Shown here: positions 29,870 to 54,052 of the stretch, piece by piece
Layout of the letters: every line of letters begins with the position of its first letter
Numbering within the stretch: position 1 is the stretch's first letter
Translations under genes and position numbers: made by a program
Source: Tachypleus tridentatus
Taxonomy: Eukaryota > Arthropoda > Merostomata > Xiphosura > Limulidae
Assembly (NCBI RefSeq): GCF_004210375.1
Contig: NC_134834.1
Span: forward strand, 142,881,009-142,945,008
Length of the DNA: 64,000 bases
Direction of reading: 5' to 3'
Notes under the pieces: generated by a model
The model's database searches: none
Seen by the model: the letters and a program-made list of their open reading frames with translations, nothing else
Told to the model about the DNA's origin: nothing

Positions 29870-30128
29870 TTACAGATCTGAGGCCCCTTCAAAGTACTCT
29901 CCTCCCCAACGCACACATTTATGCCAACGGTGTTTCCACTTGTTGAAACAGTCCTGGTACGCTTCTTTTGTAATGTCCTCCAGCTCCTTCGTCGCATTTG
30001 CCTTAATCTCGGGAATCGTCTCAAATCTTCTTCCTTTCAAGGGTCTTTTGAGTTTGGGGAACAAGAAAAAATCGCAAGGAGCAAGGTCAGGTGAGGAGGG
30101 GGGTGGAGAAGAACAATGATCGAGTGTT
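29870..30128 (-). pseudogene. Mariner transposase C-terminal piece
   Basis: After the internal deletion the sequence resumes in the catalytic domain. SPDLAPCDFFLFPKLKRPLK contains the third aspartate (in PCDFF) of the DD34D triad. The frame continues with KGRRFETIPEIKANATKEL to the normal C-terminus KCVRWGGEYFEGASDL with a stop at 29870. The joining region near 30085-30128 is out of frame with the rest. The good preservation on both sides suggests a fairly young copy. Confidence 0.88.
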
Positions 30129-30139
30129 TGGCCAAAAAC

Positions 30140-30517
30140 TCACGAGTTCTGAGGGCTGAATTTCGCAGCAACGCGGTGCATCTTCAATTGTTTGGTCAAA
30201 ATCTCGTAACAAAATCCAACTGATATCCCACACTCTTCAGCAAGCTCCCCGAAAGTCAGACGTCGATTTGCCCGCACCAGGGTGTTGATTTGGTCGACGT
30301 GTGGGTCGTCAGTTGACGTGGAAGGACGTCCAGGACGCTCATCATCTTCAATGGACTGTCGACCATCCTTAAAACGTTCATGCCACTTGAAACATGCCGT
30401 ACGATTCATAGCAACATCACCGTAAGCCGTGTTAAGCATAGCAAAAGTTTCAGTCGCAGATTTTTCAAGTTTAACACAAATTTTCACAGCAAGTCGTTGC
30501 TCCTTCAGGTCATTCAT
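30140..30517 (-). pseudogene. Mariner transposase N-terminal half (truncated)
   Basis: The frame starts at the ATG at 30517 (MNDLKEQRLAVKICVKLEKS) and runs ~125 codons through the two helix-turn-helix DNA-binding motifs of mariner transposases. Recognisable landmarks are TACFKWHERFKDGR, the linker ERPGRPSTS, and LAEECGISVGFCYEIL. It ends with a stop shortly after KMHRVAAKFSPQNS, where the catalytic domain should begin. An upstream in-frame extension to 30577 lacks similarity and is probably untranslated. The first two catalytic aspartates are absent from the element, so it cannot encode an active enzyme. Confidence 0.9.
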
Positions 30518-31248
30518 TCTGAAATCCGCCAAACGAAAAAATCGCACTTCACTTAAAACCGCGTAGCTAATACACAAATGAAGATATCTGCAATCGGAAA
30601 ATGGCGTAGTAATCAGCTAATCTGTGCGAACCTAGCGACACCAAGCAGATTCCCCTGGAACCAACTGGAGCCGCGCAATTCAAACAGTCCGCGTATTTTT
30701 TGAATAGCCCTTGTATGTATAAGTACATTACAGTGAATAATATCTTTTATCAAAGCTATCATCATATATTTAGACAGTTTTTATATTAAATCTCAAAACA
30801 TGTTTCCAGATATCTAATCTCGTTCTTGAGTCTTTGATAAACAAAGTTACAAAAACTCAAAAATGAGTTTCCAGAAAATCTAAACTTAAATTTCAAGAGT
30901 AGTGTACAAAAAGAAGCTCTCCAGGCAGACATAATAAATTACTTCTCACTGGAAGACTTCCAACTAAAACAAGAAGTATAACAGGTTAGAAAATCAAGTT
31001 TTCACAGAAACAATGTTGTATTATCTGGGTCATAGTGCATTCCAATAGTCCTGTAGTGTACAAATTGATGTAAAAACATATAGATTAATAAATTATCATT
31101 GAAACACATACATACAAATATTAAGATAAATTAGGTCACATGTTACACAGAACAAAGAAAGCACAGAGTGACTCTCATACAAACTGATACAAGAAAAACA
31201 CTATCATTTTCTAAACCACTGCTAGTTTGAAGCAAAACTACATGTAGT

Positions 31249-31368
31249 TATTTGTTATTAAGCTTAAAGCTATACAAAGAAGGTCTATTTATTATCTGCC
31301 CACCAGGGATAACGAAACCCGATTTCTAGCTGTATAAATCCGCAGACATGCCGCTGTGTCACTTGGGG
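31249..31368 (-). repeat. SINE family B
   Basis: ATTTATTATCTGCCCACCAG, AACGAAACCCGATTTCTAGC and CGCAGACATGCCGCTGTG. The minus strand carries a tRNA-like head with a B box of the type GGTTTCGATACCC. Confidence 0.8.
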
Positions 31369-31640
31369 AAGGGTGGAGACTACGTCTATATTAATAGTTA
31401 TTTTTTGTCTATATGATACATTAATTTAGTGGCAGAACTTGACCTCGGTCGAATATAACCTGACACTTCATTAGAAGAACCACAACCGATACACACACAT
31501 TTGTTACAAGCGAAATACTAGGCGTGACTGAATATATTAATTGTGTGAATAATCTTGTTATTTGATTTAGAGTAACGTCACATTAGTATCTCAGAACGAC
31601 TGGTATGGGTATTAACACTTTTACGGATAAGGAAAGAACA

Positions 31641-31670
31641 ACGTTTCGACCTTCCTAGGTCATCTTCAGG
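31641..31670 (-). ncRNA. Hammerhead-ribozyme-like motif in inverted Penelope tail
   Basis: Minus-strand CCTGAAGATGACCTAGGAAG then GTCGAAACGT, with stem II GACC/GGUC, six-base loop UAGGAA, and intact CUGANGA and GAAAC boxes. Confidence 0.45.
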
Positions 31671-31686
31671 TTAAGAAAGAGAGAGT

Positions 31687-32230
31687 TTGCATACTGGATT
31701 ATACATTCCCGGGACTCAGCACATGCATGAAACAAAACAAAAACTCAACATATTAAGAAACCAAATACACACAGCCACAGAACTATGTTCACCTGATAAA
31801 ATTAACGATGAAATCAACAAAATAAAACACTTCATCAACATCAACAAATTTCCTCAAAAACCCATGGACAAAATTATACACACACACCGAGACCAACAAC
31901 AAACAAACAATAAATCCCAAGATACAACAAACTACAAAACCGTATACTGCTGCATACCATATGTTCCTGACATCATCGAGAAAATAGCCAACATTAGGAA
32001 AAAAAAACTTAACAAAATACAACATTCCGGTAAACAACACCAAAGTAATTCAAACACCAGATACAAAACTAAAATCCATACTATGTAAAAACTACAGTGA
32101 CAAACACACCATTAACACAATTTATAAAACACAATGCAACGGCTGCCACGACTTCTATATTGGAGAAACAAGCAGAAAAATGGAAACTAGGTTCAAAGAA
32201 CACAAAAAACACCTTCACACGTTTTTGAAC
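31687..32230 (+). pseudogene. Penelope polyprotein fragment: RT C-terminal end and GIY-YIG endonuclease
   Basis: The first frame (to 32088) includes FININKFPQKPMDKII and IPYVPDIIEKIANI, the conserved C-terminal end of the Penelope reverse transcriptase. After a frameshift near 32040 a second frame reads TPDTKLKSILCKNYSDKHTI, then YKTQCNGCHDFYIGETSRKM and RFKEHKK, the GIY-YIG endonuclease with its paired cysteines and the catalytic-region YIGET and EH motifs. The catalytic RT palm is missing. The protein in active elements copies RNA and nicks target DNA; this copy cannot. Confidence 0.85.
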
Positions 32231-32476
32231 ACTGCAAATCAAATCAATACAACATAACCATAGAAAACACCAAGATATTAAGTAGGGAAACAAATATAAA
32301 CGCAAAATCAAAGAAGTCCTACTCATACAGCAACAAAAAATAAAATCAAACCAATATAAAGGAACACCTATATACCTATACTAATTAATAACCTAACATA
32401 CAACTGCAACGTCCCCTACAATCCTGTATCCCTAAGACGTGTGTAAAAGGTCATATTCAAACTCTTTCTTTATTAG

Positions 32477-32506
32477 CCTGAAGGTGACCTAAAAAGGCCG
32501 AATCGT
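32477..32506 (+). ncRNA. Decayed hammerhead-like motif in Penelope tail
   Basis: CCTGAAGGTGACCTAAAAAG then GCCGAATCGT. The A9 position of CUGANGA and the GAAA box are both mutated, so this copy is expected to be inactive. Confidence 0.35.
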
Positions 32507-32605
32507 TGTCCTAGCGTCATTTATAAATAAAAGTGTTAATACCCATACCAACCGTTCTGAAATACATTTTTACTTCAAGTGGGTTTCTCGTCATCACATA
32601 TATTC

Positions 32606-32736
32606 ACATTAACTGTTGACTAAAGCTGTATTCACACTAACTGTTGTTTTGAGGTGTATTCACATTAATTGTTGACTAAAGCTGTGTTTACATTAACTTT
32701 TGGTTGTAGCTGAGTTCACACTAATTGTTGGCTAAA
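32606..32736. repeat. Short degenerate tandem repeat, ~28-30 bp unit, about 5 copies
   Basis: Successive copies of a unit built on CACATTAACTGTTGACTAAA appear next to the end of the Penelope fragment at 32.6 kb. Spacing varies slightly and copies carry substitutions (CACTAACTGTTG, CACATTAATTGTTG, CATTAACTTTTGG, CACTAATTGTTGGC). No function is evident. Confidence 0.75.
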
Positions 32737-34299
32737 CAATGACAAGTACAAGCGAGAAAAAAAGTTGGCGGTGGGTGTTGCCAGTCAGTTAGCTGCCTTG
32801 TTTCATCAAACAACTCAACAGAGAGAGAAATGAAAAATCACTGGAGGCAGGTGCTACCAGATAGTTGCTTTCTTTCTAACCAACAATTCAAAACTAGTTA
32901 TAACTGCACATAGCATTATTAGTTTTGCCATAACAAAAACAGAGCAAGCGTAGTGGCAACAGGAATCAAACTTATGACTATTCATGTAGGTATTTTGAGT
33001 ACAAATATATTCTCATTTTGTGTACAACAGACTTGTACATCTGATTAAAGGCTTACCTCATTCTGTATGGATAAAAATAGTAAATTGAGAATTATAGTAA
33101 ACATTCTTTCTCCAATACAGCGTCGGTCCACTTGGGTTAACAAAGTGTTAAGATAATTGAAAACACTAATTTTAACCAATTTAACCATAATTCAGTTAAT
33201 AAAATAAATAATCTAGCATTAATAATGACAACCATAAAACATGGTGAAAACGGCCTAGGGCATAAGGAAAAATTTGGTAGCCAAATCAGACAATGTAACA
33301 GAATCGTTATTCAAAGTCCTTCCTTGATACTAAACACGTAGCGAACACATATCCAACCATTTGGCTTTAAAGTGCTGTTATCAGTTGCTAGAATTACCCT
33401 GAAAGTTAACATTTTTTTACAATGAAAATTTGTTTCTGAAAGATAATTACCTCCTCAGACCCAAAGCTATCTCGACCCTCATTCACAACTTTCGTTAATA
33501 GCACACTTTCGCGTCACTTCAGACATGTCGATCACGTGACAACCTTCCGCCAATCATACTGTGTCATCTATACTAATACATCCAACTTACTCTACTATTT
33601 TGGCATAATATTCTCTTTCGTTACTTAGCAGGTACAAACTAGAAACATCAACATACCAGTGGAGAAGAAAGTTGGTAAGTACCTATCGGAAATATATTTT
33701 CAGAGTAAGAAAATGTTTACTTTCGAAATGGTACTATTTTCTCTCACTCAAAACTATAATTCTACATTGTGAAGGCGGAGAGGCAACAATATTCAATCAA
33801 ATGGAGAGCAACCATCTTGAAAGAACAGGTGTGCCACAGTAATAAAAGGAGGTACATCTATGGGGTATAGCAGTTCTCCTGGAACAGGTATACTTATCAC
33901 TCTGTAACGAATACAGTAATAGGCAGGCACCAGAGCCTCAAGATGTACAGCACTGTTCTGTGGAGAAGTGTTGTATAACTATGACGGGAACCAGTGCGGC
34001 ACGAACAAACATTGAATGTCTGGTAGGTAATCGACAACGGGCCGAAAAAAATATTGGCCAAGGGTAGAGTTTTGTGGCACACTGGAACGTTAACTGGTGT
34101 CAAAATGGGCAGAACATCCAGTGAAAATGTCTTGTCTGGGATATCGTGACCAACGATGGCGATACTCCCATGAAAAAAACAACAACAAAAATCCAGGAGA
34201 AAGTGCCTTCAATAAGTAGTCTGATTAAAACTTGTCAAGTAATTCGGAGTCAGCCTGATGTCAACATATGTAGAAACTGTAATCACGGGACATACCAAT
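32737..34299. other. Non-coding stretch up to the edge of the CpG-poor domain
   Basis: Normal CpG density (for example 33508-33550 and 33980-34160). The minus frame at 33897-34103 has no recognisable domain. Confidence 0.55.
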
Positions 34300-36060
34300 A
34301 AGTATGGATGATTAGGACAGTAAACTGTTTATGAATAAACCAAGTGCAGTCTGCATGGGCAAAAACAACCAAGGGCAGCACCTTGGGATATGTGAGAGCT
34401 ATATAACATAACAAGAAATTTACTGGACAAAGCAGTTGATCTGATCCAAAAGGCAGTACAGGTGGGAAATGAATGTAAGGAATTAGAAGAAAAGGCTAAG
34501 CAGCTTCTCAGGCAGTTGATGTCCTGAAAAGGAAGGCCCAATCTGGAGATTGGATAACATACAAGAAATAAAGGAAGAGAGAAACATTAATGCCATAAAT
34601 ACTGGAATAAAAACAACCATATGGTAATAGGGTAGGAAGAAAGTCAAGAGGTACAAGGAACACATTAAAATGGGTTAAAAGGAAGAACTGGACAGAGCAT
34701 GAAGGACAACAATGAGGATCCCAATCTGGCAGAACAAAGAAGTGTGATGGATGGACAAAGAGAAAAGAACAAAAGAGGATGGAAATAATTTGGGAAGAAA
34801 AAGCTTTCAAGAGGCACAAGTATGAAAGGTGTTTAACAGGGCAGTCCTATAACAAAGCAACAGGGAAGGAACAGAAGGGCAAAATTGCTAGAAAGAAAGC
34901 ATTCACCATAGAAGCTCAAGGGAGAGGAAATGGAAACAAAAATGGAAGGAAATTGTCATTTTACTGAATGACAAATGCATATGTTTACAGTTATCCCAGT
35001 TAAGAATATACTCACAGAAATACCTATGAATGGAGGAATCACTCCATGAGAAGAACATGGTTAGGGCATAATAAGGGATTAGCCACAAGATTCAGAACTG
35101 TCATCTCATAGTCGTTAGCTTAGTACAGATGATCCAGAGTCTGAAAACACAGAGATCTTGACTTGGTTCCCCCTCTACCTGGTGATATAGCTGACAACAA
35201 TGGAACTGTCAGAATGAAATATAACCACCTTCACAGGAATGGAAGGAAATGATACAGAGCTTGAAGAGTTGCCTAAGGTTCCAGGATAAGGTTGTGGAAT
35301 GAGAACACCTCCAATCCCATGATCAAATCCCTGTTGAGCCACAAAGCAATATCAGTGCTGATACCAAGTGGAAGGATGATGATATAGTCCATGGAATCAT
35401 GGAAGAACTTCCACTGGTTGAAAAGCATCTAATGAAGGTAATGCATATGCACCCTACCCAAGGGAATGAGTAGCTCACAAAAGAAGTCCACATCCCAAAA
35501 AAAGATGGAGCCTCTTTCACAGAGAGTGAAAGAGAAATTAGGGCCTATGTGACTGCCTACTCCATATCCCAAAGCTGAAGTGGAGAAGATTGAGCCCAAC
35601 CAAGATGGGTCATAACTTATGGATCATTCATGCTCTATACAGCAGAAATAAGAGTCTCCCAGACATATGTGCATTTCATATCAGCAATAGATCATTTGAC
35701 TTCTCCTTGGAGGTATTAAAGATGATCACTTTCCACAAGTATATAGACTGAAACAAGAGAGTAAAAGCACTACTGGACTTATAAAGCACAAATTATCTTT
35801 AACAGAGAACTTCTCTATAGAAAAATAAAATAAAAAAAAACAAAAAAGCAACAGTTCCAAGTTGTTCTGGGAAAGGTCTCAAAAATAAACATAAATCCTC
35901 AGACCAGAAACTTATGGCAATAAGAAAGTTATTTTGCACACAAAAGGGGTGGAATAACTTAATGTAGTAATGGAATAAAATAATAGTTTCCACAGAAAAT
36001 AATGCCCTACTGCAGCTATGTAATCTCAAAGTGCATGAATGTTAAACTCCTTTTGTTAGA
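34300..36060 (+). other. Purine-rich tract with traces of former coding sequence, unidentified
   Basis: Strong plus-strand purine bias and few CpGs. Short plus-strand frames such as NLLDKAVDLIQKAVQVGNEC and DDDIVHGIMEELPLVEKHLM read like decayed, charged coiled-coil protein, separated by stops every 30-60 codons. It may be a dead retroelement gag or a decayed gene. The frames on the minus strand are low-complexity by-products of the bias. Confidence 0.3.
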
Positions 36061-37799
36061 TAAGACTTAAGTACAGTTGCAAAAACCAAGACACTGTATA
36101 TATGATAGAAAAAAACCTATCAAAACAGGTTGACAATTTTGTTAAAAAGGCTTTTCATTCTGAGGGATAAACAGCTGTTTGATATCCACTTAACCATAAA
36201 ACCCCATTCAGTTTAGCAATGAGCCTGAGATAAACTGAGGAAAAAGGGTTAACTTCATGATGTCATGACAGAAGCTTAAGTTTTGGGATTGATGTAGATG
36301 TCAGAAAGAAAGTAAGAAAACTAGAGGCTTCACTTGCAAAACCCCAATACAGATAACTAACAATGTGTTAGGCAAAAAGGGGCCACCAGTAAAATGTGAT
36401 AACTGTTAAGGCAAATCTTACAAAAAATCTTATGTTAAAAAACAAACTAAATAGAAGGGTTTTCATATTAAAACCAATCCTTATCTTCCTAGATTTAAAA
36501 ATCCATAACAGGGACCAAAGCAGTCACACTTCATAATTAAATGGTTGATAACATAAATTATAACACTTAAAGAGATAGCTTCAACACAATGAACAGACCA
36601 TACAGTTGGTAAGACCTTGTTGAAAGAAAAAATGAATTATCAGAATACTCGCAAATCTTCAATAAAGACAAGCTTGTAAAGTTAATAAATGAGTTGTGTA
36701 CATGTCCACAAACTAAGATATAAAACTAAATCAATTTTACTGGTGCTTAGGATTTTTTGTAATATTTGTTTTAATTTACTTTTCTACAAACAACTTTATT
36801 TTTCATACATGATTGATTATTCTCATGTTATGGTTTTAAATAATTTAAGAACAACTTCAAAAATAAAATTATATTTATTTGAAGGAACTGTTATTGATAA
36901 TTATAAACAATATTATGATCATGAACGAAGACTAAGAGAGTTATAAGTTAATTAGTTTTTACACACATTCAGCTTTAAAATCTTTCACTCTTTATTATTA
37001 TGTCTATTTTGAAAGGAAAGGAATTTTGGGTAAGGAACAGTTCATACATGAAATTCAAATTTCTTTAATGAATTAAGTCTTTTAGTAAATACAAAGCATA
37101 TAAAAATTATATATAACATTTTCCACATATTGACTCGAACACATAGTTCATTCGATATCTCAAAAAAAACAGCAACTGTTTTCGTGGATATGTAGTTCTA
37201 ATGTATATTTTAATCTTTTTTCTACAAAAATATATTTTAACATGTTTTGATATTGGTAAAAAATAAATAAGTAATACTAAACTATAAGGCTTTCTAACCA
37301 AGACAGACAAAAAACAAACAAACTTGGCTGTAGGTTTCCAGATCATCAAGTTCTTCTAACAACTTGAAACCACTACGAGTACAAGTACAGTTTTTAACTA
37401 TGATAGTGAATACTACATTTTTATGTAGGAGTAGCCAGTCAATGTGAGATCTTAAAACTAAAACAAACCAGCTTCTTAACTATCCCAAAATAACACATTT
37501 TAAACACTTACACCTTGAACGTTTACCAAGATTTAAGAGCTGGAAATTTTGTACAGATGTATTTCCTTTCAGTTTGAAATTTACACACCACAAACAGCTT
37601 TATTTCATTATGAAATCTAAATATGAATAAAACAATAATAAAAAATATATTTTTTAACAACATAATCCTGATGTATTTAAAGATATGTATGAAGAGTCTA
37701 TTTGGCCTGCTAAAAAATGTTACAAGGATGTGACACACAGTTTCTTCATGCTAACATGCCGTATCAAAATGAAAATAAAGAAATGTGTTTCAGAAACTC

Positions 37800-38340
37800 A
37801 TGAATTTATTCTCTAAACAATCCAAATTTTTACTTGACAATATTTATAACCATCTTGATGGTGTTACTATGGCACCTAGATTAGCTCTATTACTGCTTTT
37901 TTTTGTTTCTGTGTCATCATGTTGGCTTTAAAAATGTTTGTCTCAGTTTTAACAAGTATATTACAAAAGATATACAGATATCTTTTTCATCTTTTGACAA
38001 GCTGAATATACAAATTTTTTTTAACTACCTTAACAGCACGTATCTGAATGTTAAATTCACCACAGAACATCAACATAACCATTATATTCCATCCTTGTAC
38101 CTCTCTATATTCATAATAAAGATGGCATATGTTGAGTGTGAAGTTTTGCATAAAAGTATTTTCACTGGTTTATATATTTGACCTTTAATATTTTTATCAA
38201 AAACCTGATCAAAATACTTGTCCATCAGGCATACAAGTTAACTTTCAAACATACTTTATCAAAAGAGATGGACTATATTAAGAAATTTTTTACTAAAAAA
38301 ACTTTCCAATAAACATTGTAAATTGAGTAATTAGAAACTA
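37800..38340 (+). pseudogene. Penelope-like reverse transcriptase relic
   Basis: Translation with frameshifts gives QSKFLLDNIYNHLDGVTMAP at 37821-37880, matching the Penelope RT motif DGVAMGSPL. It continues FLCHHV (37904), then a degraded region where the YVDDI-type active site should be (KDIQISFSSFD, near 37963), LNSTYLNVKFTTEHQHNHY, ECEVLHKSIFTGLYI ending at 38178, and NLIKILVHQAYKL. The motif order is right for Penelope elements. It lies in the CpG-poor domain and is much more decayed than the 32-kb copy. No tail was seen. Confidence 0.75.
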
Positions 38341-41300
38341 TTTAAATAGTAAGACTTTCTGAATTTCCTAAATGAAATGTAGCTGAATGAAAATAACTGT
38401 TTGGTCCTCCTCTATAGAGGAAAACAGGTTATTTTGATTAGAAACTTCCTGCACAAATTATGCATTATGTATTCCCTCAAATGGAGTCGAGATTTGCTTT
38501 AAAGACTGTAGGAAAATTAGTGTTTGATTTAGATATAAGGATTATATATCCACCTTCAAAACTTCTAATGTGGTATATTAATCACTATAAATATTCTGTT
38601 GTTTTTTTTATATTAGGTTGCATTAGTTCCAACAGTAAGTGGTTAACAGTGTGCATAAAAGAACATGTTAATTTAATTTCCAAGTATTAAGAAACATGTG
38701 ACAAACAAATGTAATGAACCTATTAAGAGATGGCAATTTAAAATCTTCATTAAAGCCAACAGTGACAAGAACTGTAAATAAGGGAACATCTATTAATTAA
38801 CAAACAAAAACTGAAGTTAAACAAGCAAAACAGATTAGTTTGGTTTTTGCAGAGGTAATTTTCTGTATGTTTAAAGAGGCAATTATGAGCCACTTTTTTA
38901 TATGTCCAAGTTATGTCCTTTATTATTATATATTACTGTGACAATTGTTGTCTTCAAAATTTAAACTTAAATGTTTTTATCATTTGAGTCTTCCTTGTTT
39001 AGTTACTATTTGTTAGACAATAGCACATATTTTTATTTGGTTTTGTGTAGCAGAAACAACCTTTGTCATCAATTAGATTTACATGATCCATGACTTAATA
39101 ACTAATATCTAAATAGTTACTTAATAAGTCTGGCTTCTTAAAATCTCATTTTGGTACACCTACACTAAATTACTCTAAGTGTCATCTGAGTTGAATCACA
39201 CAATCTGTAGAGTATGCAGCTATGCTCTCTTGGTTTGCGAGACTTCAGGTTGTTAATATTTTTGACTCAAAAGATAAGCAACATTTTAGGTGGATAGATC
39301 CTACACTGATTGACATTAAAATAGCCTAGGTTAGTTTTAATACTAACAACAAATTTGGGAAAACTAGTTCAGTGAACTGGGGGGCCATGGATTAAGGATT
39401 CAGTTATGATAAATTGTATGATGATTCCTTACCATTATTTCTAGCTGTAATCATAGCCTGGATATAAAATTATAATGAGTAAATACATTCTTTATAAATT
39501 GATTTCTGTATGTTCAATGATATTATGATATTTCAAATAATCACTGAACATAAATACAAAAAGAAAGTAGTATAATGAGTAAATTCATTATGGTATTAGT
39601 ACATATTTAGCCAATTTTATAAGTATGTGGATATAAAGCAGACCTTTTATTTTCAAAGAGCAATTACACTTTCTTTAAATGACAAAATCATGGAGTAGGT
39701 CATGAATGAGAGCTCATTAAAAGGACAAAGTTTTCAATTCTCCTCCAAGCTAGTTTTTTGTTGTATTTGTTATTATTATTTTATTATAACAAGTGTGGAA
39801 TTACAACTACTTCATCTACTCACGTGCCTGTGATGTTCCCCAGTAAATTTGCATTGGACTTCGTATTATTGGCTTCTCTAAGCATTTATTGAACATTGCT
39901 ACTCATGTGTGATAGAGGTTATGTATAATAGAAAGTGTCAACATGTATGATATAAGAATGTTCTTGGCATCCTTTTTAAAAGCTTGTTATGGAAACTATG
40001 GTTTCAGACCACAGAACTGAACATGGTCAATGATAGAAAAAGAATGATTCCAAGATGAGCACAGGACCAAGAACATCCTTCTTAAAAATGTGTGATTAAC
40101 TTCAGTACATCAGAGTTTTCTGTAAACTTCTTCTGTCATAAATAATGCTAAAAATATGCCTGCCTTACTTTAACCAGTGCTTTTAAATTAGTGACAAGAA
40201 AAATATGCAACTTATTTACACTTCTGAGATCAATGTAATAGACAAAAGCTCTTATTATGCATCTGTAGTTTCTGGATATTCTTTGTCCACACAAGCCAAG
40301 AAAACAACAACAAAAAAAAAAAACATTTGGAACATTACATCATATTCAACTAAACTCATGGAGAAGTTTAAACTCAATTTCTTGTGCCATAAATATAAAA
40401 CAATTGTAATTTTTCATTAATAATATCATTTTCAGCACAACATTGTCTAAACTAGCTGACTCAACACTGTAGTGAATGTTTTCTATTTTCAGATTATTAG
40501 GTAAATGTAATCATTTTCATCCAATATCAAACTTCTCATGGTCATGTTGACAACAATATATGTATTTACTCATGTATGATACAAACAGCAGCAATATAAA
40601 AGTAACTAATCAATACAAAAATAAGAGCAGCAAAGTTATTTGAAACTCTAAGGTTGCCATTTCTTTTTATACAATCTGACACGTAAATGCAATTACAGTT
40701 TTTCTGTCCTACTTACATTGTGTGTGTGTGTGTCTATAAACCATGCATTTTTCTAACATGAATCAAAAATATAGAATGCAATGACTCGCATGATGAGAAG
40801 ATGTTTGTGGCTACTCCAACATTGTTAACCCATTTTTCCAAAGTGAATATAGTCTTACCTTATGATGTCATTTGTGTTATATTTAGAGATCTATTATTGT
40901 TGCATGTTATTTTTTAAAATATTGTAGTTCAGATGTTTTGTGTTTCTATACAATTAAGGTCAATCTTGCTTAATAAACATCTACAAAAAACAAATATTTA
41001 TAAAATTTGTAGATACATAGAGGTTTTTGGTAAAAATAATATTTATGTTAGAATATTATTTATTGTATATAAGATCCCTGATAATTAGATTTATGATCTA
41101 ACTGTATGAAAATAAGTTTTTACACAATGGAATAAAATTATGTTTCAAGCAAAATAAAATATATATTTTTTTGCATCCTGCAAGTTAAAATAAAAATATT
41201 TCTATTTTTCATTAAAAAAGCAACATCTAAATATAATACAAGTTTTGTTCTCACCTTTGTGCTGATTTGAGATATGGTACATTGGTTCTCAACCTTTTTA

Positions 41301-43522
41301 TGTTAGTACTACAAGTCAGACCTTTGTTATGACTGTAATCACACACATCCACTGATAATGTAATTTTTCTAAGCCAATCACCTTTCTGTTCAGTCTACTT
41401 TTTATTTACACATCTTTATATCGTGACACCTTACCTAGATCCACCAAGATGAGGGTCATGGTGGAAACAGTTATGGTAGAAGTAAAACTTTTCCTAATTA
41501 TATTTCACTTCTAGCCTGTTAATTTCAAATACAATAATTCTCCTCTTGCAATCTTAAGTTGAAATCTCCAAACTGAAATGAAAGTGAATCTGGTGGAGAC
41601 AGAGAAGAACTTAGCACTTTTGAAAGTGAAAAGGAATAAAGAAGTATTGGAAAAAGGGTAATTAGAAACCCAAAAGCTACTTGCCCAAGAGCAACCTTGT
41701 TAGCTTTTAGTAAGTGTAATGGACAGGTTTTGTTAAGGTGCTGCTTACCTAATAACAAGCCAGGTTGTCCAGATGAAATACCAGTTCTGATCTAACTTCC
41801 AGTCAAATAGACTGCCTCTACAGGGTTTGAAAATGCCACCCATATGCTGTTGATGGCAGACAGTACAACTAAACCATATCACTGAAACTAAGTAAGTATA
41901 AAAGGGGCACCAAACTATCCAGAAGTAAAATAAACCAGTGTAAACATGCAAGGTATTATGCTTTTCTTAAATACCACTATTACATGGAACCAGGATTTAC
42001 AAAGACAAAAACATACAAACTTATATTATAAATAATAATAAGATGGTGGGAAGTCACTATAAGAAGAAAAGAATTTCCATATTTCCAACATTGTTGTTAC
42101 TTGGACATGAAGTAAGAAATGGATACATGAAACAATATACACATCTCAGCTTTGATAATAGGCAATATAAGACCTTTTATAAAAACTAACAATTCATCCA
42201 CTGGATTGGGTTTGAAAACACTGTTTAACAACCAAAGAAGCAGAGAAAAGCTAAGCTTGAAAATGTAATTACTACGCATGTGCTGAAAAGCTGAGATTCT
42301 GGGCTGATGAAGGAAATTCTTCCAAACTGAAAGTGTATCCTGAGGTTGTAAGCCTAAAAGTCACAGCCAGTAGTTAACTACAAAAGATGAATGATCTCTA
42401 TAAACATCATCAGAAGTGTTTAGCCATATAATAATCTCACACAGAATGGAATTTGCAAAACAATGTAGATAGTAAAAGTAGGAAATGAAGGAGGAAAATG
42501 GACATGGATGAAGATATGTCTAGCTATGGCATTAACAAGAGATCATCTTGAAATTATGGCAAACATACAATATTATTCAAACTACCATTTTACCTACAAA
42601 GTTCACAGGAAAACAAATTAACCAATCTTCAAGAAAACAAAAATCACTGACACAAACAAATCATCCTTGAAATACAAATACTCAGAAAACAAAAACAACT
42701 AGTTTACATATAATAGTTTGTTCCTTCAAGTTTCTCCTTGTACACCCATCCTTGAAAAAAGTAAACATTTAAGCCCACCCCTTTATTTTAAGGAAATAAT
42801 TGATTCCCTTCTTAAACACAAAATTGTCTGGTAAATATTGCTACTGATACAACTCACTCCATAAATTAGTTGGATTTTAGACTTCTCAAAGGCTTTTAAT
42901 CTTACATTAAATAGAAAAACTGAGTAAAGATATCTTAAGCATCTTAAGAGATTTCAAACACAGCCTTATTATACCAGAAGGGTATATGATTAAAGTGCTA
43001 AAGGTTATTATGATGAGGGATAAAAGAAGATACCAAAACTAAAAAGCATCTTAAAGTTGGGAGAAGTTTTTCTTTAAATTTTGTTTATGTTGAAAAAAAG
43101 TAGCTTTTGGGAAAGAAACTTTAACAAAATAGAAAAAGAGCTTTAATATGAATTATATTAATTTTTGGAAGCAATCACACCGTCATTAGGAAAATGTAAA
43201 TGTAATTTGTATTTTAAACCCTGTGTTGCTCAGTGAAATGTACAGTTAACAACTTGATATCTGTTACTTAACACACATAGAAATGATTTAAATTTATAGT
43301 TAAATGCTCTTATTTCCAAGTAACAGCCTAAATTGACCATATAATTATTTTTGTTGATTTCTCAATTGGACAGTATTACTTCTAGGTAACATACCCATTT
43401 ACAAATTAGTTAAATACATTGCAAAAGCATTGTTTTTAAGCAATCTAGACTTAAGTAAGAAATTCAATGAAAACATATTTGACAAACTACTTTCATAATG
43501 TATGCCATAGATTTCTGTGGTT
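38341..43522. other. Intron-like CpG-poor stretch
   Basis: AT-rich, with few CpGs. A segment near 42750-42930 translates with stops into YFKEIIDSLLKHKIVW, vaguely LTR-retrotransposon-polymerase-like. Nothing else was recognised. Confidence 0.4.
40719..40733. repeat. (TG)n microsatellite
   Basis: Seven TG repeats. A similar short run lies at 2534-2549. Confidence 0.9.
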
Positions 43523-43778
43523 TGGTTTGAATTTTTACACAAAGCCACATGAGACCTATCTCCACTAGCCATCTCTAATTTAGCAATAAAAGCCTAAAGG
43601 GAAGGTATCTATCCATCACCACTCACTGCCAACTCTTTCACCAATGAATAGTAGGATTGACCATAACATTATAATGCTTCCAGAGCTAAAAGGATGAGTA
43701 TGTTTGGTGGGGTGTGGATTTGAACCTGTGACACTCAGATTGTGAATCAAGTGCTCTAACCACTTGATCATGCAGGGC
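43523..43778 (-). repeat. SINE family A, near full length, all CpGs lost
   Basis: It aligns over its whole length with the family, but every CpG of the consensus has become TpG, CpA or another dinucleotide. Examples are TTTGAACCTGTGACA for TTCGAACCCGCGACC, and ACCAATGAATAG for ACCAACGAATAG. It sits inside the CpG-poor domain. Confidence 0.9.
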
Positions 43779-44598
43779 TGTGTGTAATATAGGGTTAAAA
43801 ATAATACAAACATTCTACAAATAAATTTACAGACATATTACTTTGATTTATAATTGAAAGTTATCATTTTGAAAACATATGTAAAGCTTTCATTGCACTA
43901 ATGATTCTTAGACTGGATAAAGGAAACAGTTTTCTTGTCTAACATTTTGTTGAAGCTATCTGACAGGATCTTCATGTCTTCAAATGAAGACATTTTAGTT
44001 GAAGTTTCATATTCTTAATTGTTCTAAAGAATGTGGAAACAAGCTACCAGATTGGTACCAAATTTATGTTTTAGTAGAAGTATATTAGAATAAAAGTGAC
44101 AGAATACTTACCTCTTTCAAAGTTATCCCTCTCATTAATAAATAAAAGAAAAACATTTAAGTTAAATATTTTAACTGCAAGATGAAGCTTACAAGTAGTT
44201 TTAGACTAGAGTTTATAGTATAAAAAATATCAAATGTTTTTGGGTTGGTTACTTTGTGTGTATTCATGGAATGGTTTGCCTGATGTGGACTGTTAGACTG
44301 ACTTATCTTATTTAATCTTTTTTTATGTATACACATATGTAGAAAGCTAAATTTAACTTTACTATTTCTTCTTCTTTAATGGTTACTTAGGGGTGAAGTG
44401 TGACCTTCAGAAACCAAATTAACCTTTTAACAATTCCTTTTTCCTTGCTGTTCTAACATTCTTTAGTGTCATATGAAGATATGATAAATTTTATAGTTGT
44501 AACTTAAATGCTTAGAAATAACCCAAGAACTTAATTTGTTACCTTCATCAAAGGGCTTTGGAGTAATTGTAAATGGACAAATAAGAGCTTATTAACTT

Positions 44599-44736
44599 AA
44601 CATGGATGTCCTTTCCAACTCCCAACTATAACTCAAAATGGATGTCTCTTCCAACTCCCAACTATAACTCAACATGGATGTCTCTTCCAACTCCTAACTA
44701 TAACTCAACATGGATGTCTCTTCCAACTCCCAATTT
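44599..44736. repeat. 36-bp tandem repeat, about 3.8 copies
   Basis: Four near-identical 36-bp units begin with AACATGGATGTCTCTTCCAA and continue with CTCCCAACTATAACTC. The differences are only a handful of single-base changes, so the array is young. The unit length is a multiple of three, which keeps a 12-residue repeat frame open (WMSLPTPNYNST) in a 68-codon reading frame. There is no other sign of coding, and I treat the frame as accidental. Confidence 0.9.
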
Positions 44737-45858
44737 CATCCACCCCTTAACCATTACACTAAATATATTACTTTTAAATAATAACACAAATTTCCTTTCC
44801 CATATAAAATAAAGCCTTTCAAAATTCTCATACTCCAAGTGCATATATTTACCCTTTTTAATAAAATTGGATTTTTCCAACCATAGTATCATTCTTTAGC
44901 AATATTACTGTCAATATTTTTCTGAATCTTAAATTTAAAAGTCCTACAAAACAACTTAAAACTCTTTCTAGTTGATTAACCTGTTTCTTTTATTCTCTGC
45001 TATTTTTCCAAAGTCAAACTGTAAAAATAAACTGCACTGAATAACTTTGAGCTTTTAGAACACAACAGCTTAACCCACTTTTCAAATGTATTTTCTCTAG
45101 AGTGGAGAAGATCTAGAAGTAATTTGATTGGTTCAGATGTTTAGAATAACAGTTAAGAACTTAAAAACAAATCTACCTTTGGGTGGTCTTCTTGAGTAGT
45201 GAAAGGAAAATGTTTGAAGTACAAACCTGGGTAACAGGGTTAAGCTCTGAAAACCCATTAATACTGATTTGTTCTTTGATAAAATTAGTTTTAGCAACAA
45301 TTATATACTTGTGAAACTACAGTGCATGGTTACATATTAAACCTCACATGTGTAAAAACTGTGAAAAATCAAGTAATTATTATTTCTTCCTTCAGATGCA
45401 GACATCTACCTGTTAGCACAATAATTACACATCATATAACTTATTACATTAGAAACACAGACAATCAATAATAACCTACAATTTTCTTACTTATATTTTG
45501 TGCAATCATTTTGTCTAAGCTTAAATTATACTGTATGATGTAACTTGAAACTCAGATGGTTCATACATGGTGTTTATTGTTGATTAGCTTGTTATTCAAC
45601 CCAGGTGATTCTGTGGCATCTGGTATTGATCAACCTGTCACATAGGTATTATGTTACAAGCTGTAAACATCTGAAGTCAAAGTATGCTGAGATGAGGTAC
45701 ATAATTACTTAACTGTCAAGTTAAAATAAGTTAGGATTAGTTTTGCATCACTACCACTCCAGCATATACTACTATGTAGGTTTTAATACACTGAAGCCTA
45801 ACACGATTTGCTATACATCATGTGAATATTACCTGTCCTATACTTATTAATTGTCTTT

Positions 45859-48800
45859 ATGCATTAATAAAGAGTTCTTGGCATTACTTTATACACTAAA
45901 AACAGTTCCTGGGATTATTTTATGAGTTGATAAACACTTCATGGGATTACTTTGTTTGTTGGAAAATAGTTTCTTTAATAACCTTATCAATTGATAAATA
46001 CTTCCTGGAATTACTTTGTGTTGATAAACAGCTCCTTTGGATTACTTTATGAATTGACAAACAGCTTCTTGGGATTACTTTGTGTTGATAAACAGAACTT
46101 GGGATCAATTTATGTGCTGAAAAACAGTTTCTTTGATTACTCATATGTTGAAAAACAGTTCCTGGGATTACTTATGTGTTAGTGAACAGTACTTGAAATT
46201 ACATTCAGTAGATAAACAGTTCCTAAAATTACTTTACATGCTCACAAACAGTACTTCAGATTACTTTATGTATTGATAAACACTTTCTTTAATTACCTAT
46301 AAGTTGTAAAATCTTCAAATTACTTTGGATTAATAAATAGTTCTTGGGATTACTTTAAGTGTTGATAAACAATACTTGGAGCTACTGTATGTTGATAAAC
46401 AGTATTTGAAATTACCTTATATTGATAAACAGTTCGTAGAATTACTTGGTGTTGATAAACAGTTCCTGGGATTATTTTATGTGTTGATAAACCATTAGGG
46501 AGATTACTTTGTGTGTTGATAAAGAGTTCTTAAGATTATAATATGTGTTGATAAACAGTACTTGGAATTACCTTATGTTAATAAACAGTTCCTGGGATTA
46601 CCTTATGTTAATAAACAGTTCCTGGGATTACTTTATGTGTTAATAAACAGTTCCTGCAATTACTTTGTGTTGATAAAAAGTACCTGGAATTATATTATGT
46701 GTTCTTAAACAGTTCATGGGTTTACTTCATCTGTTGATAAAAAGTACTTGTATTACTTTGAGTTGAAAAACAGTTCCTGGAATTACTTTATGTGTTGATA
46801 AACAGTTCATGGAATACTTTGTGTTGTAAAGCAGTGTTTGGAATTATTTTATGTGTCGATAAATAGTGCTTGAGATTTCCTAATAGGTTGGTAAATAGTG
46901 CTTGGGATTTCTTTATGCATTGATAAACAATTGCTAGGATTACTTTGTCTGTGGAAAAAGAGTACTTGGGATTACCTTATGTGTTCACAAACAGTTCTTG
47001 TGATAACTTTGCCTTGATAAACAGTTCCTGAAATTACTTTGTGTTGATAAACAGTTCTTGGGATCACTTTATGTTTTGATATTCAGTTCTGGCGATTACT
47101 TTATGTGTTAATAAACAGTACTTGAAATTACTTTATGTATTGATAAACAGTTCTTAAGTTTACTTTATGTGTTGATAAATAGTTCTTGGGATTACTTTAT
47201 GCGCTGATAAACAGATATTGAGATTACATTGTCTCTTCATAAAGTTAATGGTATTATTTTGTGTATTGATAAATAGTGCTTGGGATTACATAATGTGTTG
47301 ATAAACAGTACTTGAAATTACTTTATGTGTTGATAAACAGTATTTGAAATTACTTTGTTGATAAATAGTATTTGAACTTACTTTATGTGTTGATAAATTG
47401 AGTTTGGGATTTTTGTGTAGATAAAGAGTTACTGGGATTACTCAGTCTGTACATAAACAGTTCTTGTAATAACTTTGTGTTAATAAATAGTTCCAGGGAT
47501 TACTTAATTTATTGACACACAATAATTGTGAAAACTTTGTGGTATAAATGGTTCTTGGGATTACTTTATGTATCAATAAACAGTTCTTCAGATTACTTTA
47601 TTTGTCGATAAACAGTTCTTGGGATTGCTTTATGTGTTGATAAACAATACTTCGAATTACTTTATGCAGTGACAAAGAGTTCTTGGAATTACTTTATGCA
47701 TTAATAAAAAGTTTCTTTGATTACTTTAGATGTTGATAAACATTTCTTGGATTACCTTGTGTGAATAAATATTACTCTGGATTACTTTATGTGTTCATAT
47801 AAAGTACTTTGGATTACTTTATGTGTTCATATAGAGTACTTGGGATTACTTTATGTTTTCATAAACAGTTCTTTGGATTACATTATGCATTGATAAAGAG
47901 TATTTGGAATTACTTTATGTGTTGATAAATAGTTCTTGGTATTACTTTATGTGTTGATAAATAGTTCTTGGTATTACTTTATATGTTGATAAATAGTTCT
48001 TGGTATTATGGTATTACTTTATGTGTGGATACACAGTTCCTGGGATCGCTTTATGTGTAGATAAACAGTTCTTTGGATTACTTTGTGTTCATAAACAATT
48101 TGTTGGATTACAATACGAGTTGATAAATGGTTCCTGAAATTACTTTGTGTGTTGATAACCAGTTCTTAAAATTACTTCATGTTGATAAGCAGTTACTGGG
48201 ATTATTTATGTGTTGATAAACAGCTATTGGGATTACTTTATGTGTTGACAGTGTATTTGGAATTACTTTTTATGTTGATAAATAGTTCTTGGGATAACTT
48301 TGTGTTGATAAATACTTCCTGTAATTACTTTATTTGTTGAATAATAGTTCTTGTAATTATTTTACTTGTTGATAAACAGTTCTTGGGATTACTTTATGTA
48401 TTGGTAAACAGCACTTGGAATTAGTTCATGTGTTAATAAACAGTACTTGGGATTACTTTATGCAATGACAAAGAGTTCTTGGAATTACTTTATGCATTCA
48501 TTAAAAGTTTCTTTTAATTCTGTTCATAAAGTTATTGGAATTATGTTTTGTATTGATAAACAGTAATTAGAATTCCTTTATGTGTTGATAAAGAGTTCTT
48601 GGTAGTATATTATTTGTTGATAAACAGTACTCGGGATTACTTTGTTGATAAATAGTACTAGGGACTACTTTATGTGTTGATCAACAGTACTCGGGATTAC
48701 TTTATGTATTAATATACAGTACTCTGGATTACTTTGTGTGTTGATAAACAGTACTCGGGATTACTTCGTGTATTAATAAACAGTTCTCGTGATTACTTTG

Positions 48801-50408
48801 TGTGTTAATAAACAGTACTCGTGATTAGTTTGTGTGTTAATAAACAGTACTCGTGATTAGTTTGTGTGTTAATAAACAGTACTCTTGATTAGTTTGTGTG
48901 TTAATAAACAGTACTCGGGATTACTTTGTGTTGATAAACAGTTCACGGGATTACTTTATGTGTTCACAAACAGTTTCTTCGATTATTTTATGTGTTGATG
49001 ATAAACAGTTTCTTGCATCACCTTATAAGTTCATAAATACTTCCTGTAATTAGTTCCAAAATAGTTCTTGGAATTACTTTATGTGTTGATAAACAGTTCT
49101 TGGGATTACTCTGTGTGTTGATAAACAGTTCTTGGGATTACTCTGTGTGTTGATAAACAGTTCTTGGGATTACTCTGTGTGTTGATAAACAGTTCTTGGG
49201 ATTACTCTGTGTGTTGACAAACAGTTTCTTAGATTAACTTATAAGTTGATAAGTACTTCCTGTAATTACTTTATTTATTATATAGTTTTTGGGATTACTT
49301 TGTGTGTTAAAAAACAGTTTTTGGGATTACTTTGTGTGTTGATAAACAGTTTTTGGGATTACTTTGTGTGTTGATAAACAGTTTTTGAGATTACTTTGTG
49401 TGTTGATAAACAGTTTTTGAGATTACTTTGTGTGTTGATAAACAGTTTTTGAGATTACTTTGTGTGTTGATAAACAGTTTTTGAAATTACTTTGTGTGTT
49501 GATAAACAGTTTTTGAAATTACTTTGTGTGTTGATAAACAGTTTTTGAGATTACTTTGTGTGTTGATAAACAGTTTTTGAGATTACTTTGCGTGTTGATA
49601 AACAGTACTCGAAATTACTTTATGTATCGACAAAGAGATCTTGGGATTACTTTAGACATCCATAAACAGTTTCTTGGATTACATTATGTGTTGATAAACA
49701 CTTCCTGAAAATGCATAATGTGTTGATAAACAGTTCCTAAAATTACTTTGTGTTGATAAACAGTTTTTTGAATTACTTTATGTGTTTACAAACAGTTTCT
49801 TTGATTATTTTATGGGTTGAAAAACAGTTTCCTGGATTACCTTATGAGTTGATAAATACTTCATGTAATTACTTTATTTAATAAAAACATAGTTCTTGGA
49901 ATTGCTTTATGTGTTGATAAACGGTACTTGGGATTGCTTTATGTGTCGATATACAGTTATTGAGCTTACTTTATGTGGTGATAACCAGTTACTGGGATTA
50001 CATTACGTGTTAACTTCGTCTTGATAAACAGTTCCTGAAATTACATTGTGTGTTGAGAAGCAGTTCCTGAAATTACTTTATGTGTTGATAAACAGTTTTA
50101 AAGATAACTTTGTGTTGATAAATAGTTACTGGGATTACTTTGTGTGTTTACAAACAGTTTCTTTAATTATTTTATTGGTTAAAAAACAGTTTCTTGGATT
50201 ACCTTATGAGTTGACAAATACTTCCTGTAATTACTTTATTTGTTGAAAAACAGTTATTAGAATTACATTGTGTGTTGATAAACAGTTCTTGGGAATATTT
50301 TGTATTTATAAACAGTACTTCAAATTACTTTATGTATTCATAAACAGTTTCTTGGATTACTTTAGATATTGATAAACAGTTCTTAGGAATACCTTATGTG
50401 TTAATATA
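45859..50408. repeat. Giant minisatellite, 30-32 bp unit, about 145 copies
   Basis: About 4.55 kb of uninterrupted head-to-tail repeats lie in the presumed FoxJ intron. The unit is ~32 bp, often shortened to ~30 bp. Its two conserved cores are TTGATAAACAGTTCTTGGGA and GGGATTACTTTATGTG. Most units diverge by several substitutions or small indels, so the array is old. Young homogenised blocks stand out near 48.74-48.92, 49.07-49.21 and 49.28-49.60 kb. TGTTGATAAACA at each junction is a short inverted repeat (TGTT-GATA-AACA) that contains ATAAACA, a forkhead-core match. Open frames through the array are accidental because unit lengths vary between 30 and 32 bp. Confidence 0.97.
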
Positions 50409-50997
50409 ATCAGGGTATAGAAAATTAACACAAGCAGTGTTTCAACATGGTTGAATGCAGAAGTGTGAAGAAATTGATACATTGTAATGAGCTTGAGTAA
50501 TGTCTGATAGGTGTGGATCTGATTATGACTAAGGAATTATACATATTCTCTCACACAGAACTCCTTCATATATTTATTGAGAGAAATAGGTGTGTTCCCT
50601 TTCACTACTACTTCCTTACATTAGTTGTGGGAATGAACTACCAATTGGGCTCAAGAATTAACTGAAAGATCATGGACAAGCTTAGAACAACATTTAAGCT
50701 ATCCAGACCTGTGGGATAGTTTTTCAGGATAACAAATGATTAAATGCTACACAAGGGCTACATATAAACAGGTTAAGTAATATGATGTTTAAGGTAAGCT
50801 ATGACAAAGAGGAGTTTAGAAAGAGGAAATTTAGACCTGAAGAGGTTAAAACAGTTTTAAACATAAGTCTGTAAATTTAAGATTAAACATAATAGGATCA
50901 TGGATAACTTTAATACTACTATTCTAATATTAGCATACTATAATGTTTAAAGACAACAAAGGGCTTGTGGTCCATTTTATTTGTTACATCCACTCAT

Positions 50998-51290
50998 TTA
51001 AAAGTAACTAATTCCAGTAGCCAATCGCCTTATTTGAAAATTCAAAATATCTAAGGACAAGATAATTCCTACCCTGCCAGTATGTATAACAGAGTCCCCA
51101 AGTAACATCATTCTCACTATAATGTATGCAAAAAAAATCAATACTAACAGTTCCATTAATAATATTAACCTGCCTTTATATGATAATCCTACTTTCCCAG
51201 ATATCATATGAGTAGCTTTCATATGAATCTTTTTCAACAGTTCAAATGTCTTTTTTATGGTAAGAAAAGTCATAGCTTACCCAAAACTGA
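50998..51290 (-). pseudogene. CR1-like LINE reverse transcriptase fragment
   Basis: Minus-strand translation gives LLKKIHMKATHMISGKVGLS followed by YKGRLILL, matching the LEKIQRRATKMIPG...LSYEERL region at the C-terminal end of CR1-like LINE polymerases. The rest of the 91-codon frame is not recognisable. It is old, short and inactive. Confidence 0.5.
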
Positions 51291-51689
51291 AGACAGTACT
51301 CAAAATAAGGCTTAATTATTGGCCTATACAATGAAACAATAGTCACTTTTAGAGTTCAATATTTCAGTAAATAAAGCTCAAAATCCTATTTGCCCTACCA
51401 TTAGCAGGAGCACACAAACATAACACCAAGATTATTTTTATCCACAAGTGCCAAGAATACCATTATGGTTACTTCCATTAAATTTATGAAAATTCATATG
51501 CAGCATTATGCATTTATGATGATTAAAAATCATCTGTTAGTTACTTGCCCAATTCATTCAATGATCTATGTCAATTTGTAAAATATCAGGACTTTAAATC
51601 ATGTTAGGAGCATAAGAAACAAAACAGATGAGTTCAGGACTCCAGTTTTAAAGAAAGACTATGATATAATAGGAATTTAGTCAGATTTA

Positions 51690-51912
51690 AAGAATATTAG
51701 AAATAAGAGTTATTTAGAAATTCCAAGCTGATAGTATAAAGGCTTCTATTACAAAGTTAGCCGGACAAGAGTAGACAAAGTTAGAGATTTAAAAGACAGG
51801 TTATACTCAGTTAAAAACATTTTTGGTTTCTAACAGGGTTATTAGTGTTTGGAATGAGTTGCCAGTAGTAGTGGACACCACTTCCTTAAAAATAGTTCAA
51901 AGAGCATAATCA
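51690..51912 (+). pseudogene. LINE (CR1-like) 3' end fragment
   Basis: After a frameshift the sequence 51838-51906 reads VISVWNELPVVVDTTSLKIV, resembling the RVINVWNELP...V...SL..FK tail of CR1-like LINE proteins. A second, one-base-disrupted WNELP-like motif occurs near 50630. It is oriented opposite to the 51.0-51.3-kb piece. Confidence 0.45.
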
Positions 51913-53623
51913 ATATATTCCTGATTTTTTAAAATTTTTCTTTGGAGTGGGTGTGAAAAGAAACCAACAGAGACCAAATGTTGTTTGCTGTAGCAAACTT
52001 CATTAGTTACAGATGATGGTCATAATCAGTGCCAAATTAAAGGCAGGACAAACAGGTCATTTGCCCACAGCCCCCATGAAGTTAAAAATGAAACTGAATA
52101 AAAGTACAAAATACAACTAAAACAAATGTAGTAAAACATGAAAATAAAAATAGATTAATTTTTAAAAATTAAATACATTAACACTTTTCAAGTTTATGAA
52201 TTCTTTTGTTTTCAAATTTAAAATCTGTAATACTATTGTGCTTTTGGTTTAAGTTTATTTTCTTTTAAACCACAAAAAGTTTATATGAAATTTGGGTGAA
52301 GTAGTCATAGCATACCATATAAAGAATATAAAAGTACCCAAAGAGCCCCTAAAATGAGCCCTTGCACTGGGCCCATTTTTCCTAAGTTCAACACTGGATA
52401 AAACATGCATTACATATTTAAAGCATTTTTATAAAATCTTTGAATCCAGAAATAAATTTTCTTTCAAACTATTTACAAACTGTATCAGTAAAGGAAATGG
52501 CATAATATTTAATAACCTCACTTTCTGGAATGAATCTAATGTGTTAGTGATTTAAGATACAAACTTTGTAAAGAGATTTTTTTAAAATCAAAACACAATT
52601 CTTATTTGGTGACTGATATTAAATAAAATGTACAAACACACACACATATATATATAACAGCTTGCTTTTTGACATTACCAAAATGTTTCCCTAATGTTGG
52701 CTTTGAAAGTATGGCTCTTTTGGTTGAAAGGTTTTTGTACATGTGCTATTTATTTTTATTGTGTCTTATCTTTAGCTTAAATACTTTACATAATATGCAG
52801 ATGGAATGATATATAAAAGGTGAATGAAACTATTCTAATTTATATTTTCTCTTTAATTAACTTGTACAAAAGTACACAATACATTCAGTACCAACAATGT
52901 CCCATTTTAAAGTTAATTTGCAGCATTTAGCTGACCACATCAGGGTCTACACTGCAGCACATCATTGCCTTTACATTCAAACATACATATAAGATTAAAA
53001 ATCTATGACTTTTTGTGCCTAAAATTGAGTTTTCAAAAGCATTTCTTGGCAAAATAAAGCCAGGGTCTAAGGTATTCGTAACTCACCTTTTAAGTGTATT
53101 GTACATCACAAGTAATAATTATTAGATATATAAAATATATCATTTTGCATTGAAAACTTAATTATTTTAATTTGCTCTTAAACAAGTTATAGCATAAAAC
53201 TCGAAACTTTCACTACTAGAGAATTAGTAGAATGCCACTGAAAATAAAATTGTTTTAATTAATAACACCATTGCATGCAGGTCCCAACTAGTAAATCAAG
53301 GATTTAACTCAAATTTAGTAAGCTTGCTATTAGAACTAAATAAAAATAACTTTACTAAGGTTTGTTATATTTATAGGCTATTTGAATACGAGAATCTCAT
53401 CATGATTACAGAATTTGTACAACTACAAAAAGTACAACACACCCTTTGGCACTTAGCACACAATACAAAAGGCACACGTGTCCCCATTCCATTCAATTAG
53501 TGTGATACTGTAAATACAATTATTATCAATAACTAACTTTCTTAAGCACTCCTGGTAATGGCAAAGTAAAGAAGAAAAATATGTTTTTAAAAGAAGTTGT
53601 GACTTTACTGTTTAAATTTGAAA
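51913..53623. other. Intron-like CpG-poor stretch next to the FoxJ exon
   Basis: AT-rich. No FoxJ exon, SINE or transposon was recognised apart from a microsatellite at 52635-52657. Confidence 0.5.
52635..52657. repeat. (CA)n(TA)n microsatellite
   Basis: ACACACACACATATATATAT, in the CpG-poor domain. Confidence 0.9.
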
Positions 53624-53714
53624 TTAATGGTGCATGAGTTGGGATGACTTTTTGCAACTCTTTACTCTTACTGTTAAAGAAAAACTGGTCTCACTATAAC
53701 TTTCTTTTCTTCTT

Positions 53715-53716
53715 AC
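53715..53716 (-). other. FoxJ2/3 exon 1 splice donor and start of a long intron
   Basis: On the minus strand the coding frame ends at Gly-Trp-Lys and continues AAG|GTAAGAAG, a near-perfect 5' splice site. Past the donor the frame no longer resembles a forkhead domain and stops within 31 codons, so the intron call is firm. The matching acceptor was not found; the intron seems to extend at least through the minisatellite region. Confidence 0.85.
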
Positions 53717-54052
53717 CTTCCAACCATTTCCCGCTTCTCTGTAGTACGGAAAGTTTGTACGTATCCATGAGTAAATCTCACTTAGAGTCATCTTTTTCTT
53801 AGGTGAACTATTTATGGCGAATGATATTAAGTTTGCATAGCTATAAGGTGGTTTTCCATCCTTCTGACTAGAATCTTTAGTTGTTGAAGAAACTGAACAG
53901 TCGGAACAGTTCTGATTCCCACTACAACACAACGTGTTACTTTTATGATCACAACTGATACAAGAAGAATGCTCTCCTTTCAAAGTTCCTTGGACATTTA
54001 ACCTTGGTAACCAATCTATGGATGTTAAGCTTTTATCTAATTCCGACGCCAT
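53717..54052 (-). CDS. FoxJ2/3: FoxJ2/FoxJ3-type forkhead transcription factor, first coding exon (partial gene)
   Basis: This exon encodes the N-terminal 112 residues of a nuclear forkhead (winged-helix) DNA-binding protein. Residues 1-18 read [18 protein letters not shown], the hallmark N-terminus of vertebrate FOXJ2/FOXJ3. Residues 65-112 begin with [19 protein letters not shown] and end in [10 protein letters not shown], the first half (helices 1-2) of the forkhead domain. The reading frame then meets a consensus donor (AAG|GTAAGA at 53717/53716) in phase 0, so the recognition helix (family motif NSIRHNLSLNKCF) must come from a later exon to the left, which I did not find. The ATG at 54052 is chosen because it begins the conserved motif, has a good context (A at -3, G at +4), and an in-frame TAA lies four codons plus one upstream at 54067-54065. 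Residues 31-52 form an unusual cysteine-rich linker. The exon sits at the right edge of a CpG-poor domain. Family assignment is strong; ortholog naming beyond FoxJ2/3 is not possible from this exon. Confidence 0.93.

Follow-up and report, generated by a model that had tools for sequence, protein, structure and literature searches.

Whether a long tandem array built of forkhead-core-like sites, situated in what appears to be an intron of a forkhead gene, serves that gene as a regulatory element or simply carries a motif multiplied by copying is the question raised by the 64,000-nucleotide stretch of DNA analysed here, referred to as the window. The distinction matters beyond this locus, as the copying inherent in a tandem repeat can turn one chance motif into dozens and thereby mimic a designed regulatory array. 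We present an analysis in which the array is most probably a drifting intronic minisatellite whose founder unit held the motif by chance.

The array was delineated by TRF at 45855-50406 (plus strand), with a period of 32, 144.5 copies, 72% matches and a score of 3054, which bears out the tandem array of about 145 units at 45859..50408 described in the original prediction. Its head-to-tail units lie within the range of seven to several hundred bp that is characteristic of minisatellites. Cyclic profile alignment divided it into 146 pieces, of which the first is partial and the other 145 are taken as units (the final one breaks off after six bases), and the unit listing gave a mean identity of 83% to the consensus TTGATAAACAGTTCTTGGGATTACTTTATGTG with gaps scored as mismatches. 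The spacing between units has its mode at 32 bp (96 of 144) with a shorter class of 30 bp (25 of 144) and a mean of 31.5 bp, and 137 of the 145 unit sequences are distinct. Signs of copy-number turnover are present in the form of these 30-bp length variants and a block at 49086..49213 (plus strand; units 104-107 of the listing) in which the same 32-bp unit is repeated four times without change, probably through recent amplification. A second subtype is represented at 49339..49594 (plus strand; units 112-119) by eight 32-bp units that are nearly identical, and the units 100-102, 126-128 and 137-139 seem related when judged by eye. In lag analysis the units showed no sharply defined period of higher order (best lag 1, 0.758; mean 0.731), and self-BLAST of the array gave, among the matches listed, only long alignments of about 73-74% identity.

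The host gene is represented by a FoxJ2/3-like coding exon on the minus strand at 53717..54052, comprising 112 codons with a possible start codon, whose translation matches PF00250 with E=9.3e-18 over profile positions 2-48 of 88. The 112 residues finish with the N-terminal half of the forkhead domain, and a splice donor, GTAAGA, follows directly from 53716. A search of solved structures with the exon product returned general forkhead similarity, the best match being FOXM1 at 8.2e-13. The start of vertebrate FOXJ3 is very similar to the product of 54052-53717, and on the strength of this similarity the gene likely belongs to the FoxJ2/3 class. Local tblastn with a 39-residue query did not locate the remaining half of the forkhead domain anywhere in the window (best E 1.4). 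Because the forkhead exon is closed by the GTAAGA donor and the other half of the domain was not detected in the window, the array probably lies in the intron downstream of this exon, placed from the 5' end of that intron, of which positions 1..53716 (minus strand) are presumed to form a part and which would span at least 53.7 kb if the gene is intact. No 3' end of this intron was located in the window, and the next coding exon would be situated past position 1. The placement in intron 1 of a FoxJ2/3 gene that had been proposed from the bare sequence is thus supported, by inference, through a PF00250 half-domain exon and a donor on the same strand; intron 1 here denotes the intron following the first coding exon. 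The ATAAACA sites of the array fall on the antisense strand of this minus-strand gene. Two exon-like alkaline phosphatase matches, at 61221-61616 (E=8e-15) and 63654-63998 (E=3.4e-28), lie further upstream, likewise on the minus strand.

Forkhead-like cores do recur in the array units as predicted. Exact ATAAACA occurs 66 times on the plus strand and never on the minus strand, exact RYAAACA 74 and 3 times, respectively, and exact TTGATAAACA 44 times and not at all, so that the density of ATAAACA is 14.5 per kb in the array vs 0.61 per kb elsewhere in the window. The earlier estimate of 70-90 intact cores, made by eye, was slightly above the count for ATAAACA and agrees with that for RYAAACA; with 74 RYAAACA on one strand of 4.55 kb, the array holds one factor's motif in dense copies. 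Classified by core, the 145 units comprise 66 with ATAAACA, a single one with the optimal GTAAACA, 7 with another form of RYAAACA, 20 with only the looser RYMAAYA, 35 without a match, 2 with an insertion and 14 whose core is disrupted by an indel, the truncated last unit being counted among these; the unit alignment counts 67 rather than 66 ATAAACA, as insertions between columns are ignored there. The AATAAACA form is found in 11 of the 66 intact cores. Along the array the intact cores show mild clustering (63 runs vs 72.8 expected, fraction 0.05), for which block amplification can account.

The degree of surprise attached to the motif was gauged against 4000 random 32-bp pieces drawn from the rest of the window, circularised and read on either strand, among which RYAAACA was contained in 6.0%, RYMAAYA in 18.2% and exact ATAAACA in 2.1%. 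The chance that such a unit would match the host gene's own family through RYAAACA is therefore of the order of one in 17, for a coincidence noticed post hoc. The unit also contains WGATAR, TAATCC, TTTATG and a MYB-type core, and it matches 5 of 27 motif families vs a mean of 0.75 in 1500 random pieces; it is rich in motif matches generally and not in forkhead matches alone.

If the core were of special importance, it might be expected to stand out from the rest of the unit in its conservation, which is the check suggested in the original prediction. Two of the 145 units with at least eight gaps (at 48497 and 50401) were excluded from the analyses of column variation, parsimony and ranking. 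By raw conservation among 32 cyclic seven-base windows, ATAAACA ranks third, after ATTACTT and AAACAGT, the latter having five positions in common with the core, and by parsimony on trees of 143 units ATAAACA and ATTACTT tie for the fewest changes, at 7.9 each. Intact copies per 145 units number 73 for ATTACTT, 72 for AAACAGT and 67 for ATAAACA. ATTACTT lies outside the core and has no forkhead match.

Adjustment for base composition renders the standing of the core dependent on the reference chosen. With reference means that include the core columns, ATAAACA is 10th of 32 by conservation and outside the best ten by parsimony, a comparison biased against the core, which makes up five of the eight A columns. 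The adjustment was accordingly revised by removing each seven-base window from its own reference, and measure, base class and type of average were combined into eight variants. By conservation, ATAAACA then ranks 4 (mean) and 10 (median) per base, and 4 by both mean and median when A/T is set against G/C; by parsimony the corresponding ranks are 9 and 12, and 3 and 5. When the outlying column 28 is also dropped from the reference, the core falls to ranks 21 and 20. The base-adjusted rank of ATAAACA, from 3 to 21 by choice of reference, depends on few columns. At least two other seven-base windows are ahead of it in all ten adjusted rankings, and ATTACTT is in the top six in all ten and above ATAAACA in nine.

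Considered position by position, the A residues of the core are well kept: the three best kept A columns (6, 10 and 4) all belong to the core, with the non-core column 20 as the fourth. Compared with the A/T columns elsewhere in the unit, those of the core vary less (Mann-Whitney p=0.036, uncorrected), and 4.9% of random sets of six columns are equally low in change (likewise uncorrected). As a joint entity the core fares differently, being intact in 67 of 145 units vs 63.8 expected under independence of columns (z=1.0), a z exceeded by 25 of the 31 other seven-base windows, such as GGATTAC at 2.9; for seven-base windows wrapping the unit end the joint counts are approximate, as these join the end and the start of one unit and not of neighbours. 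Across raw and base-adjusted conservation, parsimony, joint intactness and substitution type, evidence for core-specific constraint is mixed for the A positions and negative for the core as a unit, and the analysis shows that at least one other part of the unit is kept as well as the core. The survival of the core in diverged units, which had been the reason for attention, holds to the extent that it is among the better kept stretches (third of 32 raw, jointly fewest steps). A special role for the core is not supported: ATTACTT is kept as well, the C is variable, joint intactness is near independence, and substitutions that preserve the core are as frequent, in proportion, as their counterparts elsewhere in the unit.

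The pattern of substitution by base bears on the same issue. Outside the core, the sites differing from the consensus are 245 of 972 for G, 47 of 279 for C, 196 of 1802 for T and 50 of 410 for A, with column 28 alone supplying 37 of the 50 A differences. Within the core they are 40 of 139 for C, 21 of 138 for T and 21 of 705 for A. The C of the core, which is the base that separates RYAAACA from looser sequences, is the fourth most variable of the 32 columns. Changes at the degenerate core positions that keep RYAAACA (A to G in 3 of 4, T to C in 12 of 21) occur in proportions that match those of the same change types elsewhere in the unit (A to G in 42 of 50, of which 36 are in column 28; T to C in 98 of 196). 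The A-rich core would therefore look conserved in consequence of substitutions falling more on G/C than on A/T. As a separate observation, T-to-C differences on the plus strand of the array affect 110 of 1940 sites vs 52 of 1115 for A-to-G (36 of them in column 28), an imbalance with few columns behind it that could be a transcription-linked strand asymmetry of the minus-strand gene.

Taken as a drifting minisatellite, the array may have begun with the tandem duplication of a 32-bp AT-rich segment, probably in a very large FoxJ2/3-like intron. The founder unit would have contained ATAAACA by chance, and the motif would have been multiplied by copying. Growth would have proceeded by replication slippage and unequal exchange, processes suggested by the unit-length variants and the homogenised blocks, and the units would then have drifted, substitution falling more heavily on G and C than on A and T. 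We infer both the neutrality of the array and this mechanism of expansion. Of the three options offered in the original prediction (enhancer, decoy and coincidence), coincidence fits best, and the enhancer and decoy options have no positive evidence past the motif count and the well-kept A positions of the core.

A transposon origin of the array found no support: when the window was compared with itself (E up to 1e-8), no match between its two flanks was listed, and each flank scanned alone yielded, apart from short or imperfect repeats, just the separate array at 44593. In the rest of the window, no match to the unit consensus had an E below 0.66. Neither Rfam, at gathering thresholds, nor ARAGORN reported anything, an exact scan of viral_contigs gave 0 matches in a collection from which the window's own genome records may be absent, and among the titles listed in the literature search none describes this array.

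The foremost alternative is that of a motif-cluster tandem-repeat enhancer or silencer, in which FoxJ (or a different factor of the forkhead, GATA or OTX type) would bind the array and regulate its own gene, and in which the number of weak forkhead sites matters and no single unit does. Such a function through motif number needs no constraint on each unit, and it would draw on the 66 ATAAACA and 74 RYAAACA gathered on one strand within 4.55 kb and on the very well kept A positions. It finds a precedent in the MORC3-repressed enhancer, an intronic tandem repeat that varies in its unit from one mammal to another and has 10-80 SPI motifs; as described there, better conservation of the motif than of the surrounding unit does not figure as a defining feature (PMC13373173). 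Further in its favour, another study describes FOXJ3 as relaxed at the first three bases and AATAAACA as enriched in FOXO3/FOXJ3-bound regions (PMC4770209). Weighing against it, no constraint specific to the core emerged from the tests, with the core C fourth most variable and ATTACTT equally kept, and GTAAACA is present in only one of 145 units and AATAAACA in only 11 of 66 intact cores. On balance, a regulatory array of this kind is unlikely; its narrower version, a FoxJ autoregulatory enhancer acting by motif count, with about 70 weak putative sites, a cluster kept by turnover and weak constraint on the core A positions, is slightly more doubtful still. Should related species keep forkhead-rich arrays in this intron, the locus would become a natural setting in which to test autoregulation and whether selection acts on motif number.

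Two other functional accounts are weaker. A structural role, whether as phased or curved DNA or as folded repeat RNA, is made conceivable by the mean unit of 31.5 bp, equal to three turns of 10.5 bp, and is nevertheless very improbable, as phase coherence at 10.5 bp was matched or beaten by 24% of shuffled unit orders and the RNA folds of four 128-nt stretches were not clearly better than those of shuffles (z 0.42, 1.83, -0.89 and 1.55). That the array acts as a decoy sink, titrating forkhead proteins off other targets, is the least credible of these accounts: many cores are indeed collected in one place, but some 70 sites are few when the remaining 59 kb or so of the window holds 109 RYAAACA on both strands, and the tests again gave no constraint specific to the core.

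Comparison with known systems places the array nearest to repeats of the minisatellite type. In common with the intronic minisatellites or VNTRs, it consists of intronic units repeated in tandem, with a unit length in the range from seven to several hundred bp, and it is distinguished from that class by its approximately 145 units over 4.55 kb; some intronic VNTRs are stated there to contain enhancer sequences (PMC8096271). The MORC3-repressed tandem-repeat enhancer of IFNB1 resembles the array as an intronic repeat with many motifs for one factor and differs in having seven core units of 192 bp with more than 95% identity, a tested function and motif clusters in other mammals (PMC13373173). 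A further parallel is the association of forkhead proteins with tandem repeats seen in FOXP3 multimers on TnG microsatellites, where the repeats are TnG with spacings of 8 and 12 bp as against cores about 32 bp apart in the array; that study identified no long TnG elements in the FOXJ2 and FOXJ3 ChIP sets that it examined (PMC10719092). The Fkh1/2 site array of the yeast WHI5 promoter shares repeated forkhead sites in one regulatory stretch; it differs from an intronic minisatellite in lying in a core promoter at -126 to -75 bp and in having been tested by mutation (PMC13288135).

The window contains several other elements. Its self-comparison revealed a dispersed repeat, about 270 bp at its longest, in many copies and both orientations, at about 73-89% identity, with copies at 60-308, 8262-8511, 14110-14372, 15603-15869, 21933-22183, 58897-59120 and 62479-62661, among others; a GATTCGAATCC stretch in one copy hints at a possible tRNA-derived SINE. 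A mariner-like transposase fragment lies at 30143-30616 on the minus strand (HTH_48 of Mos1 transposase, E=1.8e-08), and the adjacent 29873-30139, on the same strand, gave no Pfam match at 0.01 and may correspond to the C-terminal part of a mariner. A longer dispersed repeat with open frames is present in two copies of 79% identity, at 3722-4144 and 31978-32399, the latter overlapping an ORF with a DUF5824 match under its cut-off (E=0.0013). A direct duplication of 257 bp, at 57873-58129 and 59112-59367, retains 98% identity over a separation of about 1.2 kb. Finally, seven further short tandem stretches of other units were detected by TRF (27362-27604, 32601-32736 and 44593-44733, and also at 11613, 27654, 54449 and 62680), three of them with at least about four copies and the remaining four with about two.
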